Source: Acinetobacter larvae
GTDB taxonomy: Bacteria; Pseudomonadota; Gammaproteobacteria; Pseudomonadales; Moraxellaceae
Direction of reading: 5' to 3'
Assembly (NCBI RefSeq): GCF_001704115.1
Contig: NZ_CP016895.1
Location: 1,798,001-1,862,000 of the forward strand
Length of the DNA stretch: 64,000 bases
A program made the position numbers and the translations under genes. Positions 7,698 through 15,146 of the stretch are shown here, one piece after another. The notes below the pieces were generated by a model. It ran no database searches and was not told the origin of the DNA. It saw nothing but the letters and a program-made list of their open reading frames with translations. The first letter of the stretch is position 1. Each line of letters opens with the position of its first letter.

Positions 7698-8674
7698 ACC
7701 TGAGTTCGATGAAAAACGTTCAACCTTTCAGCATATTTTTGAAAGTTGGCTTATTCGGATTTAAACAATAAGCCACTACAGCAGCCATAATATTTACCAT
7801 GAAATTATTCACAGAACGATGACGCGAATGGTCAAGTTGATGTAAGTTTTTTAACTGATCATTCACCGTTTCTATTAATCCTCTTCTGCCAAGCAATTGT
7901 TTTTCTTCTTCAGTTCGGAGTGGCTTGTTTTTCATATTCTTACGTGATGGAGTCAATATTTTTAATCCTCTTGCTGCTAAAGCCTCTGTCTTAGCTTTGC
8001 TTAAATAGCCTTTATCTCCTAATAAAATGCCTTTTAATTCTTTGGTTAAAGACTCTAGTACAGCAATATCATGGATATTCCCTGATGTTACTTTAATATT
8101 AATAATTTCACCTAAGTTATTGATAACCACATGTAATTTAAAACCATAGAACCACCCAGTACTACTTTTTCCACGATTCGCTAAGCCTTTAAATACGCGG
8201 TTTCTTTTAATTCTAAGATTATGACAAACTACAAGTTTGGTTGAATCAATAATACTAATTCCTGTATCAGTTCCTTTAACCTGATGAAAAAAGCTACTCA
8301 AAGCTTGTAAACAACGTGGCATGATTTCAATAAAACGATTCTAGCTCAGCAGCTTAGGAAATGCTGATTTCCAAAAAGGGATGACCATGTGGCAGTAAAA
8401 ATATTTAAAGAATCTAAAACCTGATTGGTGAAATAAGATAACAATTGTCATGATCTCAGATAAACTTAAAGCTGACTTTTGAACTGGCTTATTTTGCTCA
8501 GGAATAAGAGCTTTCTCTAGAGATTCGTTAAATATTTTGCAAAAATCATCCACTTTACAGAATAATTCAGTAATATGATCCATAGAAAAGCCTTGTGTTT
8601 TAACTTTTGTCTTAAGAACCAATAAGTTACAAACATTAAGGCTTTTTTTCTACTTTTTTATGTCGAACTCAGGT
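7698..8674 (-). mobile_element. IS982-family insertion sequence (977 bp) with broken transposase
   Basis: The ends are ACCTGAGTTCGA (7698-7709) and its exact complement (8663-8674), flanked by a perfect 8-bp duplication TATGTTTA. The single transposase frame on the minus strand is cut by an in-frame amber codon. Confidence 0.92.
7720..8622 (-). pseudogene. IS982-family transposase with in-frame amber stop
   Basis: Two segments in the same frame, 8622-8341 (93 residues) and 8340-7720 (207 codons after the stop), together give one transposase of about 300 residues. They are separated by TAG at 8343-8341, where relatives usually have Tyr (context FPKLLS-stop-NRFIEIMPR). The downstream part has the DDE-type motifs SIIDSTKLVVCH, GWFYGFKLHVV, LLGDKGYLSKA and the E in RRGLIETVNDQLKN. 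A single base change explains the stop. The copy is inactive unless amber is suppressed or transposase is supplied by another copy. Confidence 0.85.
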
Positions 8675-8788: not shown

Positions 8789-10693
8789 TCAATTTAGTAA
8801 TTTTTTAATATAATGTTCAACAACATAATTAGATCCAATCGGGCTTAAATGACCATAATCGACTTGTAATAACTCACCATGACCATCCTGAAAACGACAG
8901 GCGAATTGCTGCTGGTCTTGATAGCACATTTGACTGATTAAGGAGATATATTGCACCTGTGGTTCAGCGAGTGCATCAACAATTTGTTTGGCTTGCGCAT
9001 CATCTTTTATAATGCTTTGCATCAGTCCAGTATTGCTTAACTCGACCTGAGTTAAAGTTTTTGTTAAGTCTTTGGCAACGATTTCAGGCAAAGACGGTTG
9101 CCATTGTGGTACAGCCCCAATAATACTAATCCGTTGTACACCTAAATTTTTTAGTTGTTTAATCAAAGCCGACCAATCATTTTGGTGATGTAAATTTTGC
9201 TGAGCAATCACCACACGATACGGTTTAAGCGTTTGAATACTTTCTATGGCTTGCTTATTGGCATAATCACAGGCTTGTTTAAATTCTCCTCGCATTGCGG
9301 AAGGTGTCAAACTGGCTTTACAGCCTGAGGACGTGACTTGATAAAAGGCTTGTTGTGGAAAAGCCTGTCTTAGCCCTAAAGATAGTGCTTGTGCATGTGA
9401 GTCACCCCATAAAAATATACTGTGAGTAGTTGAGTGTGCTTGAATACAACTCGGGTCAATTTTATTTTGACCATTTTTATTTAGATTAAAGTAGGCATCA
9501 CATTTTAACCAATAGGCATCATCAAGGTTTTGGTGTAAGTTTTTATACTTTTCGATAAACTGCGCTTTGGCACTCTTTGTTGCTGGACGTAATACAGTGT
9601 TGGCGCCATGACTATAATAAATAACAATACTGAGCAATATAATACTGCCACAGCTGGCTATTATGATTAAGTTTATTTTTAAATCATTTAAACGCTTTAG
9701 AGCGTTGCCTAAATTATTTTCAATATAATGTGCAGATAAATAGCCTAAAAGAATAGAACTTAGCAAACCAGCAAAGATATAATAGCCATTATGTTGTAAT
9801 TGTTGTTGGTTTAATATCGCGACAATCGGCCAGTGCCATAAATAGATTGAATAGGAGCTAGCCCCCAAAAATTGGCAAAAAAAGTTATTGGTCCAATATG
9901 AGTTTTGTCTTTGAGCATATAAAATACAGGCTGCTGCGAATGTCGGAATCAGGCTATAACAACTTGCCCATGGTGTGGTTTGATCAAAACTGCATAAGGC
10001 AATGACAATCAGTATGATCCCTAAAGATTCTAAAGCGATTTGTTGTGTTGTATGCAAACGATATTTTGGCAGAAAATAAACAATCCCACCTAGAATCATT
10101 TCCCAAGCTCGGCTTGGCAGTAAATAATATGCAGCATCAGGTTGAGCATAAGCTAAATATTGTGCTGTACATAATGATAGCGCAAAAACTAAAACATATA
10201 GCCAAAGTAATTTTTGTTGAAAATAGCGATAAGCTAGCAGCGTGAATATGGGTAATAATAGATAAAACTGCCATTCTACGGATAGTGACCAGCTATGTAA
10301 TAATAATTTTTGATGTGAAGAACTGTCAAAATAACCAGCATTGAGCCAATAAAAGATATTAGAACTAAAGCTAAGACTGCTTATAATATCTTTAGCGAGC
10401 GTTTGATACTCGCTGGCAATGAGAAAAAACCAACCGTAGAATAATAACGCTATACATAGTACCACCAAAGCTGGAATGATGCGTATTCCGCGATTGCTAT
10501 AAAAGCGTAGCAATGAAAAACGTTGTGCTTCGAGACCCTGCATAATAATTTTTGTCATTAAATAACCAGAAATGACAAAGAAAATATCAACACCAATAAA
10601 GCCAGCGCCGAAACCACCAATACCGAAGTGAAATAAGACAACAAATAAAACAGCATATGCTCTTAAGCCGTTTATATCATACCGAAAGTGCAT
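8789..10693 (-). CDS. Membrane O-acyltransferase with periplasmic SGNH domain (OafA-like)
   Basis: A 634-residue two-domain protein. Residues about 1-355 form an Acyltransferase_3 domain with about ten membrane segments and the conserved opening YDINGLRAYAVLFVVLFHF (catalytic His) and GVDIFFVISGYLMTKI. The C-terminal part (about 400-634) is an SGNH esterase/transferase fold with the GDS block FLWGDSHAQALSLG and the D-x-x-H block VDYGHLSPIGSNY. Proteins of this design O-acetylate lipopolysaccharide, capsule or peptidoglycan, using acyl groups passed across the inner membrane. The acceptor glycan cannot be told from sequence, and no glycan genes are adjacent. It is a single gene unit; the IS982-family insertion lies downstream of its stop. 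Confidence 0.85.
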   Translation of the reverse strand: MHFRYDINGLRAYAVLFVVLFHFGIGGFGAGFIGVDIFFVISGYLMTKIIMQGLEAQRFSLLRFYSNRGIRIIPALVVLCIALLFYGWFFLIASEYQTLAKDIISSLSFSSNIFYWLNAGYFDSSSHQKLLLHSWSLSVEWQFYLLLPIFTLLAYRYFQQKLLWLYVLVFALSLCTAQYLAYAQPDAAYYLLPSRAWEMILGGIVYFLPKYRLHTTQQIALESLGIILIVIALCSFDQTTPWASCYSLIPTFAAACILYAQRQNSYWTNNFFCQFLGASSYSIYLWHWPIVAILNQQQLQHNGYYIFAGLLSSILLGYLSAHYIENNLGNALKRLNDLKINLIIIASCGSIILLSIVIYYSHGANTVLRPATKSAKAQFIEKYKNLHQNLDDAYWLKCDAYFNLNKNGQNKIDPSCIQAHSTTHSIFLWGDSHAQALSLGLRQAFPQQAFYQVTSSGCKASLTPSAMRGEFKQACDYANKQAIESIQTLKPYRVVIAQQNLHHQNDWSALIKQLKNLGVQRISIIGAVPQWQPSLPEIVAKDLTKTLTQVELSNTGLMQSIIKDDAQAKQIVDALAEPQVQYISLISQMCYQDQQQFACRFQDGHGELLQVDYGHLSPIGSNYVVEHYIKKLLN

Positions 10694-10932
10694 ATGCAGA
10701 TTACAGTTTTCAAAAAATGCATTCTAATTTTTTTTATATTTTAATTCAATTCGACTCAATGTAAGTTGATGAATTTTTTATGTAAATACAATTACTTGCT
10801 ATTGAGTTGGGTAGGGTGAGAAATGCCAATCTACTGATCTAATACGGCGCTCACTCACCATGCTAAAAATAGCGAGTTGCAATATTCTTATTTGCGTGAC
10901 TACAATTTTTTATAATTAATGCAAGAAAGTAC

Positions 10933-10961
10933 TTGTCAAACGAGAAAACAGTGCGTATTGT
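10933..10961 (+). promoter_or_regulatory. Probable promoter of the aroG leader transcript
   Basis: TTGTCA (10933-10938) and TATTGT (10956-10961) with a 17-bp spacer. The predicted transcript start near 10968 is about 25 bp before the first leader ORF. Confidence 0.5.
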
Positions 10962-10993
10962 GTTTTCTAAGCTTTCATTTTTAGACAATAGAC

Positions 10994-11047
10994 ATGTTAC
11001 AGCAAATTTTAACCACAAACCGTTATTATTTTTGGCAATACTTTTAA
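10994..11047 (+). CDS. Attenuator leader peptide rich in Tyr/Phe
   Basis: A 17-codon ORF encodes MLQQILTTNRYYFWQYF and ends exactly after a run of seven codons of which six are aromatic (Tyr-Tyr-Phe-Trp-Gln-Tyr-Phe). It is followed within 85 bp by mutually exclusive RNA pairings and a rho-independent terminator, and then by the DAHP synthase gene. DAHP synthase feeds Tyr, Phe and Trp synthesis. This is the classical layout of amino-acid-sensing transcription attenuation. The ribosome site is weak (no GGAG seen). Recognition rests on layout, not homology. Confidence 0.7.
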   Translation: MLQQILTTNRYYFWQYF

Positions 11048-11051
11048 TAGG

Positions 11052-11132
11052 TTGCCTAAGCGTGTTCTGGGCAATGTAGAAGTTGCCCATCAATTTTATA
11101 CCTGATCGGCAACTTCGGTCAGGTTTTTTTTT
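11052..11132 (+). promoter_or_regulatory. Transcription attenuator upstream of aroG
   Basis: Four segments can pair alternatively: A TTGCC (11052-11056), B GGGCAA (11069-11074), C GAAGTTGCCC (11079-11088) and D GGCAACTTC (11108-11116). A:B frees C to form a perfect 9-bp helix with D, which disrupts the terminator. B:C leaves D free so that the terminator (11100-11124 stem plus T tract) forms. A ribosome stalled at the Tyr-Tyr codons leaves A free (read-through). A ribosome at the leader stop covers A (termination). The pairings are seen; the mechanism is inferred. Confidence 0.65.
11100..11132 (+). terminator. Rho-independent terminator of the aroG attenuator
   Basis: ACCTGATCG and CGGTCAGGT (one G-T pair) form a 9-bp stem around GCAACTT, followed by nine T residues. 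Confidence 0.85.
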
Positions 11133-11176
11133 GCTGTAACAATCGTCATTTAAACTACTCAATATTGGAGTTCGTC

Positions 11177-11275
11177 ATGGGTACATTATATTTTGCTTAT
11201 TTTGGTCAGTTTTATTGGTCTTCATACCGTAAGACACTTTCTAAACTCTCGCATAGACCCAGAATGCTCAAATAA
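11177..11275 (+). CDS. Second aromatic-rich leader ORF before aroG
   Basis: A 32-codon ORF with a good ribosome site (GGAG, six bases before ATG). Its first 17 residues read MGTLYFAYFGQFYWSSY, with four Tyr, three Phe and one Trp; a basic tail follows and ends RPRMLK. It ends 38 bp before aroG. Downstream, GGGCA (11282-11286) and TGCCC (11295-11299) can form a hairpin that abuts the aroG ribosome site AAGGA. No T tract follows, so any role would be in translation rather than termination. Its aromatic bias matches that of the first leader peptide, which argues against chance. Confidence 0.6.
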   Translation: MGTLYFAYFGQFYWSSYRKTLSKLSHRPRMLK

Positions 11276-11313
11276 AAGATCGGGCAGATGCTATTGCCCA
11301 AAGGAAAAGACCT

Positions 11314-12375
11314 ATGAATGCTATTCAACACTTATTAACAAAACAGACTAAAGAAGTACAACTCAGTTCGCCACAACAACTTAAAACGCAATTACCATTA
11401 ACGGCGATACAGCAACAACATATTGCACAACAAAGACATCATATTCATCAAATATTAACTGGGAAAGACCATCGTTTATTGGTTATTGTTGGACCATGTT
11501 CAGTTCATGACCCCATTGCAGTGCTCGAATATGCAGAAAGATTAAAACAACTGCAAAGCCAAGTTGCAGATCAAATGTTATTGGTCATGCGCGCTTATAT
11601 CGAAAAACCACGGACCACAGTCGGTTGGAAGGGGTTCTTATACGATCCAGATTTAGATGGTTCTGCCAATCTACAACATGGTCTATCTCGATCACGTCAG
11701 CTTTATTTACAATTGATTGAATTGGGTTTGCCGCTCGCAACGGAAGTGTTAAATCCAATGGCGACAGCATATTTTGATGATCTGATTGCTTGGGGGGCGA
11801 TTGGTGCGCGAACCAGTGAATCACAAATCCATCGTGAAATTGCCAGTTTAATGCCTTATAGCATTGGTTTTAAAAATGGCACCGATGGTTCTGTTCAGAT
11901 TGCCTTGGATGCTATACAGTCAGCATCTAATAGCCATCATTTTTTGGGAATGAGCCAAAATGGCTTACCGAGTATTTTAACCAGTGTCGGTAACCCCGCA
12001 GCACATCTCATTTTACGTGGCGCCAATCATGGCACCAACTATGATGCGCACAGTATTGCTCAACTAAAACAGCAACACCAAGGTCAACTACCTGCTTTGG
12101 TCATTGATTGTAGCCATGGTAATAGTGGCAAAGACCCTTTAAAACAACCGCAAATTCTGGCACAGATTATTGCTGAACGTCATCTGACTCAGGTTAAAGG
12201 CGTTATGCTTGAAAGTCATTTGGTAGACGGTCAGCAAAAAATATCAGATCAGATGTGCTACGGTCAGTCGATTACCGATGGTTGTTTGGGCTGGGAAAAA
12301 ACGGCGACGTTATTAACAGAAATGTCAGCGTTACTGGCACAACAAGATCATCATAAGCTGTCTATCTTGGGCTAG
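11314..12375 (+). CDS. aroG: 3-deoxy-7-phosphoheptulonate (DAHP) synthase, class I
   Basis: A 353-residue enzyme that condenses phosphoenolpyruvate and erythrose 4-phosphate, the first step of the shikimate pathway. Family blocks visible are LLVIVGPCSVHDP (about 50-62), MRAYIEKPRTTVGWKG (about 92-107), GAIGARTSESQIHRE, GFKNGTDGSVQIALDA, LRGANHGTNYD, VIDCSHGNSGKDP (metal-site Cys/His region) and MLESHLVDGQQ. Length matches AroF/G/H-type enzymes. The ribosome site AAAGGA precedes the ATG. Which amino acid inhibits the enzyme cannot be told by eye, so the symbol could equally be aroF. The Tyr/Phe-rich leader suggests control by tyrosine and/or phenylalanine supply. The gene is followed by a bidirectional terminator. 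Confidence 0.92.
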   Translation: MNAIQHLLTKQTKEVQLSSPQQLKTQLPLTAIQQQHIAQQRHHIHQILTGKDHRLLVIVGPCSVHDPIAVLEYAERLKQLQSQVADQMLLVMRAYIEKPRTTVGWKGFLYDPDLDGSANLQHGLSRSRQLYLQLIELGLPLATEVLNPMATAYFDDLIAWGAIGARTSESQIHREIASLMPYSIGFKNGTDGSVQIALDAIQSASNSHHFLGMSQNGLPSILTSVGNPAAHLILRGANHGTNYDAHSIAQLKQQHQGQLPALVIDCSHGNSGKDPLKQPQILAQIIAERHLTQVKGVMLESHLVDGQQKISDQMCYGQSITDGCLGWEKTATLLTEMSALLAQQDHHKLSILG

Positions 12376-12466: not shown

Positions 12467-14239
12467 TTAAAATGAAGAGCGCTCTTGATGGCGTTGTCGA
12501 TGTAAATGTTGCAATACATCGACCATTTGATTGATCTCATCATGTTGATTATAAAAAGCAATAGAAGGGCGTACGGTTTTCTCGACCCCAAAACGTCTGA
12601 GTATCGGCTGTGCGCAATGATGACCTGCACGAACGGCGATACCCTGTTCATTTAAACATCGACCTATTTGTTCAGGGCTATAGTCAGTCATCACAAAAGA
12701 CATCACACTGGCTCTGTGTTGTGGGTTACCGATCAAGCGTAGACTGGGCACCGTTTGCAAACGTTGTAAACTATACTGCAATAATTCATGTTCATACTGC
12801 GCAATATGCTGTAAGCCAATTTTTTGAATATAGTTTAAGGCTGCTGCCAGTCCAACCGCATCTGCAATATTGCCTGTACCAGCTTCAAACTTATTGGGAG
12901 GATCTTGATAGATCACATGTTCAAAACGAACATCGGCAATCATATTGCCACCACCTTCCCATACTGGCATACTCTCTAAAATTGCTGTTTTGGCATAAAG
13001 TACTCCTATACCGGTTGGACCAAAGACTTTGTGCCCTGAAAAGACTAGAAAATCTGCATCTAAGGCTTGTACATCTGTCGGCATATGGGCAATGGATTGC
13101 GCCGCATCGACCAAAACAGGAATATGCTGTTGATGTGCCATCTCAATGACTTGCTGTATGGGGGTAATCGTTCCCAAAGCATTTGACACTTGTGTAATGG
13201 CTAAAAGTTTGGTTCTGCTATTCATTAATTTAGCAAGTGCGATGAGATCGATTTGCCCAGTATCATCGACAGGAATGACTCGCAGTACTGCACCTTGCTG
13301 CTGGCAAAGCTGATACCACGGCACGATATTGGCATGATGTTCTAAATGGGAAATTATAATTTCATCTCCCGCGCCAATATTGTGAACACCCCAGCTTTTG
13401 GCAACTAAATTAATCGCCTCCGTAGTACCACGAACAAAAACAATATTATCGGTAGATGCTGCGTGAATAAAATCCGCCACAACTTGTCGAGCATGTTCAT
13501 AAGCATCGGTAGCGCGTGCAGCCAGCTGATGTGCCGCACGGTGAATATTAGAATTTTCATTCTGATAAAAATAAACTAGACGATCTATCACCGCTTGTGG
13601 TTTTTGGGTGGTTGCTGCGCTGTCGAGCCAGATCAATGCATGACCATTTACTTTTTGTTGCAAGATGGGGAAATCACGGCGAATTTGCTCAAAAACCAAG
13701 CCATTGGCTGTGGTCTGTGCAAATCGGTCTGCTGTGATGACATCTGGTTTTTCTGTATGGCTTGAATGAGTAGCAGTTGTTGGCTGTAAATGCTCCTGAT
13801 CAAAAAGAAAATAATAATCCCTTGCTGATGCATCAATAGAATGCGCTTGGTGCTGCGGCGAAGCATTTGCCTCCAGTGCATCAATGGGCAAATCAGGCTG
13901 TAAGCTATTTGGCGCAGTGGTATTGAGTAAGCGTTGATAAAAAGGGCTATGTCTAGACTGATCAATGCGTGGTGGAGCATTGCTTTCGAGCCGATCAATT
14001 GCATAGTGTGGCGTAGTCTGTGTTGCTGCTGCCACGTGCTCTGATAGGTTATGCTGATCAATTGCCTGAGCATCGTGTAGTGCGGCGGGCGACAATGCTG
14101 CAAAAAAAGCATCCGCCATGCGATTTAAAAAATCTTCGTCAGCGATGCTTGGGGCGGCGGCATGATGGGATCTACGACTGGCTTGCATATCGGTAGCATC
14201 CATTTCAGGCGACTTAACGATAGTTTGTTGGATAGTCAT
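12467..14239 (-). CDS. Encapsulated cysteine desulfurase (family 2A cargo), copy 1
   Basis: A 590-residue PLP enzyme that removes sulfur from L-cysteine to give alanine and enzyme persulfide. A SufS-like catalytic core starts near IRRDFPILQQKVNG (about 192) and contains the PLP lysine in VFSGHKVFGPTG, the substrate/PLP block ISHLEHHANIVPW, and the catalytic Cys in VRAGHHCAQPILRRFGV. Before the core is an Ala/His/Gln-rich extension of about 190 residues, absent from ordinary SufS, with short conserved islands (FLNRMADAFFAALSP, FYQRLLN, RDYYFLFDQEH). In family 2A systems such disordered extensions direct loading into the encapsulin. The start at 14239 is chosen because GGAGGT lies 11 bp upstream, inside the shell gene; the two genes overlap by 26 bp. 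Confidence 0.9.
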   Translation of the reverse strand: MTIQQTIVKSPEMDATDMQASRRSHHAAAPSIADEDFLNRMADAFFAALSPAALHDAQAIDQHNLSEHVAAATQTTPHYAIDRLESNAPPRIDQSRHSPFYQRLLNTTAPNSLQPDLPIDALEANASPQHQAHSIDASARDYYFLFDQEHLQPTTATHSSHTEKPDVITADRFAQTTANGLVFEQIRRDFPILQQKVNGHALIWLDSAATTQKPQAVIDRLVYFYQNENSNIHRAAHQLAARATDAYEHARQVVADFIHAASTDNIVFVRGTTEAINLVAKSWGVHNIGAGDEIIISHLEHHANIVPWYQLCQQQGAVLRVIPVDDTGQIDLIALAKLMNSRTKLLAITQVSNALGTITPIQQVIEMAHQQHIPVLVDAAQSIAHMPTDVQALDADFLVFSGHKVFGPTGIGVLYAKTAILESMPVWEGGGNMIADVRFEHVIYQDPPNKFEAGTGNIADAVGLAAALNYIQKIGLQHIAQYEHELLQYSLQRLQTVPSLRLIGNPQHRASVMSFVMTDYSPEQIGRCLNEQGIAVRAGHHCAQPILRRFGVEKTVRPSIAFYNQHDEINQMVDVLQHLHRQRHQERSSF

Positions 14240-15146
14240 GATATTTATCGACCTCCACATCATCTAAAACAGCTAAAGCATCTTCGGTTAAAACCGCCAA
14301 AGAGCAATATAATGAAATTAAATATGAAGCAATGGCATTGCGGTTGATGCCCATAAAGCGCACCGATAAACCCGGTGATTGTTCACCAGCAAGTCCTGGC
14401 TGGAAAAGACCGACGATACCTTGACGTTTTTCACCGACCCGAAGCAGTAAAATCTTTGTTTTACCGTCTTCTACAGGGATTTTATTGGTTGGGATCAATG
14501 GTACACCGCGCCAAGTGATAAATTGTGAGCCAAATAAACTGACTGTTGGTGGTGGTACACCACGGCGTGTACATTCACGACCAAAAGCAGCAATCGCATG
14601 GGGATGTGCTAGAAAAAAACCAGGTTCCTTCCAAACTAAACGTAATAAGTCGTCTAAATCATCTGGTGTAGGTGCACCATGCAAAGTGCTTAGGCGCTGT
14701 TGATCTGCTACGCTGGCTAATAAACCATATTCTGGGTTATTAATGAGCTCACTTTCTTGCCGTTCTTTGATGGTTTCAATGGTCAAACGTAATTGTTCTT
14801 TGATTTGATCGTGTGGGCTACTATATAAATCGGCAACACGGGTGTGAATGTCCAGTACCGTCGATACACCATTTAAAAAATATTCGCGCGGTTGGCTATC
14901 ATAATTTACAAAAGTTTGCGGTAGCGTGGCTTCATCACGTTGTGTACAAGCAACTTGGATATCTTCGGTATTACAAACTTGGTTGACCCGATAAATACCA
15001 GCTTCAACCGGAATCCATTGTAAAAGCTGCGTTAACCAACGCGGGCTAATACTAGATAATTGCGGTACCGTTTTTGTGGCATTTGCCAATTGCCGTGCGG
15101 CATGATCACCAAGTGAATGTTGGCTTTTATCGTTATATGTTGTCAT
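14214..15146 (-). CDS. Family 2A encapsulin shell protein (SrpI-like), copy 1
   Basis: A 310-residue HK97-fold shell protein. Blocks typical of SrpI-like encapsulins are visible: ADLYSSPHDQIKEQLRLT (about 123-140, E-loop region), NPEYGLLASVAD, PTPDDLDDLLRLVWKEPGFF, GRECTRRGVPPPTVSLFG, and the C-terminal VGEKRQGIVGLFQPG and RFMGINRNAIASYLIS. The length leaves no room for the cyclic-nucleotide-binding insertion of family 2B. Published work on Acinetobacter baumannii shows that this shell with its desulfurase cargo stores elemental sulfur in the cytoplasm. Upstream on the same strand is a serine O-acetyltransferase gene (276 bp away); downstream the desulfurase gene overlaps. A near-identical paralogue lies at 34326-35261. 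Confidence 0.93.
   Translation of the reverse strand: MTTYNDKSQHSLGDHAARQLANATKTVPQLSSISPRWLTQLLQWIPVEAGIYRVNQVCNTEDIQVACTQRDEATLPQTFVNYDSQPREYFLNGVSTVLDIHTRVADLYSSPHDQIKEQLRLTIETIKERQESELINNPEYGLLASVADQQRLSTLHGAPTPDDLDDLLRLVWKEPGFFLAHPHAIAAFGRECTRRGVPPPTVSLFGSQFITWRGVPLIPTNKIPVEDGKTKILLLRVGEKRQGIVGLFQPGLAGEQSPGLSVRFMGINRNAIASYLISLYCSLAVLTEDALAVLDDVEVDKYHDYPTNYR

Follow-up and report, generated by a model that had tools for sequence, protein, structure and literature searches.

A conserved aroG leader of Acinetobacter with two aromatic-rich ORFs in series as a candidate two-tier attenuator

The window analysed here, a stretch of 64,000 nucleotides from a genome of 3.74 Mb in one contig, contains the DAHP synthase gene aroG behind a leader of ~350 bases, whose parts are collected in Table 1. 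A short leader ORF (ORF1) is followed by five segments with alternative partners and an intrinsic terminator, beyond which lie a second ORF (ORF2) with eight aromatic residues within its first 17 and a hairpin next to the aroG Shine-Dalgarno (SD) sequence. An earlier note on this DNA had described the 17-codon first leader, its pairings and the nine-T terminator as well as the aromatic ORF2 and the hairpin, and both the letters and the positions hold. No obvious SD precedes ORF1 in the window; six bases separate the ORF2 stop from the hairpin stem, and the aroG SD follows the stem directly. A pattern resembling the promoter-like pair of the window is present in 70/81 of the leaders compared below, and from this putative promoter to the predicted terminator a terminated RNA would measure ~165 nt, in agreement with the length predicted before.

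Table 1 Features of the aroG leader in the window
Feature	Position	Strand	Basis
Promoter-like pair TTGTCA-N17-TATTGT	10933-10961	+	consensus scan
ORF1, leader MLQQILTTNRYYFWQYF, then stop	10994-11047	+	kept in 81/81
Segment 1 GGCAA, within ORF1	11034-11038	+	alignment A1
Segment 2 UUGCC, partner 1 or 3	11052-11056	+	alignment A1
Segment 3 GGGCAA	11069-11074	+	alignment A1
Segment 4 GAAGUUGCCC	11079-11088	+	alignment A1
Segment 5 GGCAACUUC, within terminator	11108-11116	+	alignment A1
Intrinsic terminator with nine T	11100-11132	+	stem 11100-11124, T run 11124-11132; scan
ORF2, leader MGTLYFAYFGQFYWSSYRKTLSKLSHRPRMLK, then stop; SD GGAG upstream	11177-11275	+	kept in 81/81
ORF2 aromatic codon strand, predicted partner of aroG start site	11211-11222	+	species-averaged pairing
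aroG start-site strand opposite ORF2 codons, one mismatch	11307-11318	+	pairing analysis
Hairpin GGGCA/TGCCC, ORF2 stop to aroG SD	11282-11299	+	96.6% of cells paired
aroG Shine-Dalgarno AAAGGA	11300-11305	+	conserved in alignment A2
aroG start ATG	11314	+	sequence
aroG, DAHP synthase	11314-12375	+	NF009395 and TIGR00034 above cut-off; PF00793

Several neighbours of the leader lie on the opposite strand. A gene for a membrane acyltransferase fused to an SGNH domain (8789-10693, − strand; PF01757, PF19040) diverges from it, and near aroG there is a family 2A encapsulin shell gene (14214-15146, − strand; NF041162, 535.5 bits against a cut-off of 380; PF19307) with the cysteine desulfurase cargo of the encapsulin (12467-14263, − strand; NF041166, 798.3 bits, just below the cut-off of 800). 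A short ORF at 8341-8622 (− strand) weakly matches the start of an IS982 transposase (E = 0.0009, below cut-off) and is perhaps a transposase remnant.

The leader stands out from shuffled sequence by folding and by coding content. The fold of 10960-11320 has z = −3.4, with 0/100 shuffles equally stable, and an ATG-started stretch of 17 codons with at least eight aromatics arose in 11/5000 simple dinucleotide shuffles of 10960-11313, or in 0/5000 when an SD was required as well. No family was found in an Rfam 15 scan of 10600-11500, where the best scores were 22.1 bits (gathering threshold 50) and 18.7 bits (gathering threshold 49.5).

We compared the window with 80 Acinetobacter loci, which are everything returned by one locus search of named genomes; its own copy and a paralog were excluded from every count, and the aroG start was shifted by a script rule in 12/81 sequences. 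ORF1 and then ORF2 occur in this order in all 81 sequences, and it is this comparison that provides the strongest test of whether the leader goes beyond chance. Read by eye, the consensus is ~MLKQPxxxNAYYYFWQFR for ORF1 and ~M.TFNYSYFSNFYWFYFSQ...RP.TLK for ORF2. A run of Tyr, Phe and Trp is present in every ORF1, and an SD-like motif lies upstream of ORF2 in 80/81. Identical rows were then removed (3/81 for the ORF2 region, 78 kept; 11/81 for the attenuator, 70 kept). In a further 30 loci (L083-L112), ORF1 was found in 30 and ORF2 in 29; in the thirtieth, L109, the aromatic ORF2 is preceded by an SD and, at 55 codons, extends across the aroG start. The aroG copy at L109 is only 55% identical to that of the window. 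At eight divergent places (L125-L132) both ORFs were recovered in 8/8.

To describe the distribution of the leader, we used R1, a covariance model of the attenuator, and R2, a model of ORF2. Strong R1 matches (E < 1e-12) were obtained in 39 of 149 genomes of the family, all of them Acinetobacter (39 of the 41 Acinetobacter drawn). These 39 places are the window's own genome, the eight divergent places and the 30 loci L083-L112, and each has ORF1 and an aromatic ORF2 preceded by an SD. R2 matched in 31/149 genomes, again all Acinetobacter; it missed the two Acinetobacter without the attenuator (G101 and G117) and eight others, namely seven of the eight divergent places, where ORF2 was recovered by script, and one genome (G028) whose ORF2 has 55 codons and overlaps aroG. 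Among the 108 genomes of 15 other genera, the best R1 match had E = 3e-4. A tblastn search with aroG at eight weak R1 places in other genera gave no match, and two of these eight places hold an acyltransferase-like and a Fur-like ORF (named by eye). Across 194 genomes of the order, R1 found, besides the window's own genome, one match at E = 7.9e-5, with no complete ORF longer than 109 aa within its 3.1 kb. The only DAHP synthase found in G101 and in G117 is 49% identical to the query, and those found in 23 genomes from 14 other genera are 46-50% identical. In this sample, the leader thus accompanies one paralog. The second DAHP synthase of the window's own genome (48%) has no aromatic leader recognizable by eye in ~430 bases.

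We then considered the first tier, the part of the leader from ORF1 to the terminator. In alignment A1 of 70 distinct sequences, TTGGCAA, TTGCCTGAA, TTCGGGCAA, GGTTGCCC and GGCAACC are nearly unchanged and the terminator stem ACCTGATC/GATCAGGT is little altered, with its pairs standard in 69-70 of the 70. Counting of pairs in these sequences shows that antiterminator and terminator exclude each other. Of the cells that belong to the antitermination pairing (2:3 plus 4:5), 94.5% hold standard pairs, compared with 16-48% when the alignment is slid, and two-sided changes occur in 7 cells against a shuffle mean of 2.2, in a control that leaves relatedness in. The earlier note took a lack of conservation of the leader ORFs or pairings in relatives as a refutation; both ORFs and the pairings are conserved, so that the proposed second, translational tier withstands this check. 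Amongst 25 cluster representatives, most of the variation in the aromatic ORF1 codons before TGG is silent or exchanges Tyr and Phe, as it should be if the encoded residues matter.

Modelled partial transcripts carrying a ribosome on codons −3 to +1 of ORF1 mostly adopt 2:3 (weighted means 0.52-0.60), and those with a ribosome at the ORF1 stop adopt 3:4 (weighted mean 0.53). At equilibrium, however, folding of the whole tier-1 leader gives no switch, the finished terminator winning at every ribosome position, and in partial transcripts of the window itself 3:4 beats 2:3 once segment 4 has emerged, so that a switch in the window would hinge on which parts of the RNA emerge first. The classical logic that had been proposed for this region, with stalling at Tyr-Tyr favouring the antiterminator and arrival at the stop favouring the terminator, thus stands in its anatomy, its conservation and the mean direction of the partial transcripts, but not at equilibrium and not for the window's own 2:3 pairing. 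Overall, the first tier is well supported by its anatomy, by its conservation throughout the genus and by the direction in which a modelled ribosome shifts the pairing, and it very probably fits classical transcription attenuation.

We next asked how ORF2 could bear on the aroG start site. In base-pair probabilities averaged over 78 sequences, the aroG start region is partnered, at ~0.4, by the ORF2 codons around TTT TAT TGG TTT; the same register is the best in 44/78, and individual species reach as many as 16 predicted pairs, with one mismatch, from the SD through the start codon. Another candidate helix, AUUUUAGC:GCUCAAAU, between ORF2 and its stop region, has a mismatch at one position in 75/78 and no two-sided change. 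For each ORF2 codon in turn, we placed a ribosome footprint there and calculated the energy needed to open the stretch between SD and start codon. In 61/78 sequences, all except a group with SKxxWFYFAKK, the mean cost is 6.9 kcal/mol without a ribosome; it is 3.9-4.4 kcal/mol while the A site lies between −4 and +6 relative to Trp, and 7.0-7.9 kcal/mol at +10 to +15. In the SKxxWFYFAKK group (17/78), the modelled site opens only for ribosomes early in ORF2. Six calcoaceticus-group loci go from 7.5-9.6 kcal/mol without a ribosome to 1.8-3.8 from −2 to +4, and the window from 6.0 kcal/mol to 3.5-5.4 up to codon +3 and 7.1-8.8 later. Amongst the eight divergent loci, L132 has a modelled switch like that of other loci, L128 and L129 have a different one, and L125, L126, L127, L130 and L131 show little or none.

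We compared this effect with that of recoding by random synonymous codons. The weighted difference between stop and stall is 2.97 kcal/mol, compared with 1.36 under aroG codon usage (24 draws), 1.63 under the usage of long open frames in the window (14 draws) and 1.60 under leader codon usage (14 draws); it exceeds all 14 replicate means of both 14-draw nulls, although U-rich codons facing an A-rich start site pair to some extent regardless and the nulls remove only part of this. Under the three nulls, 63, 63 and 62 of the 78 sequences lie above their own null mean, and the window, at 3.6, lies above 24/24, 13/14 and 12/14 draws. A related score, stop minus best stall, reaches at least 2 kcal/mol in 71/78, but it takes the best of twelve codon positions with no null and hence is not evidence. 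Codon choice in ORF2 is uneven as well: Tyr(+2) is TAC in 19/21 Tyr-bearing cluster representatives, against 57/549 in long ORFs of the window, and Tyr(−1) is TAT in 22/23. In the window itself, position +2 is Ser. At codon −4 from Trp (L003-L082), Ser is AGC in 19/21 Ser-bearing representatives; no tested pairing accounts for this preference.

Co-evolution between the ORF2 core and the start site was not detected: mixing partners between loci did not weaken the duplexes (p = 0.54 for cognate against mixed, 25 representatives), and in covariation the ORF2 structure scores on a par with its shuffles (263/500). In these models, the aromatic codons of ORF2 can make a pairing able to hide the aroG start site; the suggested second tier rests on folding models together with codon choice, and some divergent members show it weakly or not at all.

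The hairpin beside the aroG SD is the only structure that RNAalifold predicts in the ORF2 region. Its arms are GGACTG/CAGTCC in most loci and differ in the window; four divergent loci have, by eye, GGGT/ACCC or GAGCA/TGCTC. Three of the six pairs carry changes on both sides. As to covariation, proposed beforehand as a check, two-sided changes are thus seen in the hairpin (three pairs) and the antiterminator (7 cells), and none of the co-evolution looked for between the ORF2 core and the start site was detected. We rejected the hairpin as a cover of the SD, since its 3′ arm ends on the base immediately preceding the SD. Opening the aroG SD alone costs a mean of 1.69 kcal/mol over 78 sequences and hardly changes; with the SD left free, the hairpin is unlikely to be a working part of tier 2. 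The two-tier control envisaged in the earlier note accordingly keeps its conserved ORFs and pairings but probably loses this element. A scan found no second intrinsic terminator on the + strand after ORF2. On the opposite strand, the same hairpin is followed by a T-rich stretch (11301-11280, − strand; scan), which could be a terminator for an antisense RNA.

The ORFs, pairings and hairpin of this leader are real and conserved, and both codon choice and folding models agree with a scheme in which a single DAHP synthase gene is governed by two serial ribosome-sensing devices. Where Tyr or Phe (or Trp) runs short, the ribosome would stall in ORF1 just before or on TGG and cover segment 1; 2:3 and then 4:5 would form, the terminator would be blocked and RNA polymerase would continue. 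A ribosome that reached the ORF1 stop would instead cover segment 2, and with 3:4 formed the RNA would end at ~165 nt. Once RNA polymerase has read through, the SD and start codon of aroG would be paired with the aromatic ORF2 codons. While a ribosome lingers on those codons, it would cover that strand and leave the aroG site open, and with the ribosome further along ORF2 the site may close. We infer from sequence and folding models the translation of both ORFs, the stalling, the response to amino acids and the direction and size of both effects. The chances that the full two-tier mechanism operates seem to us even. We are equally divided on whether one leader senses the same amino acid class twice, with the codons of the second stage antisense to the SD and start codon of the gene, and the case for a two-stage design that Acinetobacter has retained as a genus and that goes with a single DAHP synthase paralog is likewise finely balanced.

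The main rival is translational coupling, in which ribosomes translating or finishing ORF2 melt the aroG start site or reinitiate there. Such coupling fits those loci in which ORF2 extends up to or into aroG: it stops 17, 16 and 8 bases before the aroG ATG in L128, L129 and L131, where no hairpin was seen (by eye), and the 55-codon ORF2 of L109 runs past the start. A closed hairpin also leaves a short distance, as do the six bases from stop to stem in the window, and on this reading the hairpin would merely shorten the path from the ORF2 stop to the aroG SD while the aromatic codons set the rate, with no starvation switch in tier 2. Coupling leaves the conserved aromatic codons, TAC at Tyr(+2) and a start-site pairing above the synonymous nulls without a reason, however, and in most loci the modelled site becomes more costly to open when a ribosome sits at the ORF2 stop. 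We consider it unlikely in both respects, as the way in which aroG is translated and as the explanation of the hairpin and the aromatic codons.

That only the ORF1 attenuator works, with ORF2 translated to no regulatory effect (for example, shielding the RNA), is improbable in our view: tier 1 suffices to explain control, the modelled tier-2 switch is not universal and no co-evolution accompanies it, yet all 81 sequences retain an SD-led ORF2 with its run of aromatics, and its codons are biased. ORF2 might also act on transcription through Rho or RNA polymerase pausing with the hairpin involved, as Salmonella mgtP functions with no intrinsic terminator and PMC3641672 considers Rho in its case; the lack of a + strand intrinsic terminator after ORF2 speaks against this, and we hold it to be quite improbable. 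A nascent peptide or small protein encoded by ORF2, such as an arrest peptide sensing free aromatic amino acids, is very improbable, for although the SYFS and WFYF residues recur in most loci they are lost in most divergent ones while the aromatic content stays, codon choice is constrained at the nucleotide level and ORF2 has no Pfam or NCBIfam match at the cut-offs used.

If the two-tier scheme is correct, the leader would be a compact natural two-stage control that reads one starvation signal at both transcription and translation, and the benefit of the second stage (a steeper response, less leak or a quicker shut-off) would be testable. It would further mean that sensing codons double as an anti-start-site strand in a γ-proteobacterium, and it would give a function to two short ORFs of Acinetobacter genomes.

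Classical attenuators of the trp, his and pheA type combine a leader ORF rich in codons for the end product, alternating segments and an intrinsic terminator before a biosynthetic gene. Attenuators of proteobacteria were reportedly covered by Vitreschak (2004) and Panina (2001). The aroG leader likewise has an ORF of pathway codons, alternating segments and a terminator before the gene, but differs in its five segments, its two-step antiterminator (2:3, then 4:5) and its second ORF past the terminator. In the literature searched, which covered few subscription papers, we found no description of an Acinetobacter aroG attenuator or two-leader arrangement, and no intrinsic-terminator attenuator joined to a translational leader ORF of the same codon class before one gene. 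The main text of a paper on premature terminators names neither Acinetobacter nor aroG (PMC2965389). DAHP synthase genes under attenuation are known from other genera and gene contexts, with attenuators predicted for the Vibrio aro-tyrA DAHP synthase gene (PMC1173090) and cited for Shewanella aroF (PMC2659441); the passages on them in these two papers mention no second leader ORF.

For the second tier, the closest likenesses lie elsewhere. In the translational attenuation of erm genes, of which ermB has two leader peptides (PMC8274638), the place of a ribosome on a leader ORF exposes the start site that follows, as modelled for ORF2, but induction is by antibiotic and involves no amino acid sensor. 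For the LEU element of Actinobacteria, which precedes leuA, base pairing has been proposed between consecutive control codons and the SD of the gene under control; the description of the element in PMC1262725 includes a pseudoknot and leaves the mechanism unsettled. The aroG leader resembles it in that an SD-led ORF of control codons stands just before the gene (ORF2 in 81/81, SD-like motif in 80/81) and these codons may pair with the gene's start site; the codons here are aromatic rather than leucine codons, and the passages on LEU in PMC1262725 describe no terminator stage.

Two leader ORFs in series before one gene recall Salmonella mgtCBR, whose mgtM and mgtP are called a singular example in the abstract of PMC3641672, a paper that also describes ribosome-mediated transcription attenuators. 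There, the two ORFs respond to different signals (ATP and proline), both affect transcription and intrinsic terminators are absent (PMC3641672). By contrast, both ORFs of the aroG leader are, in their codon content, rich in the same three amino acids.
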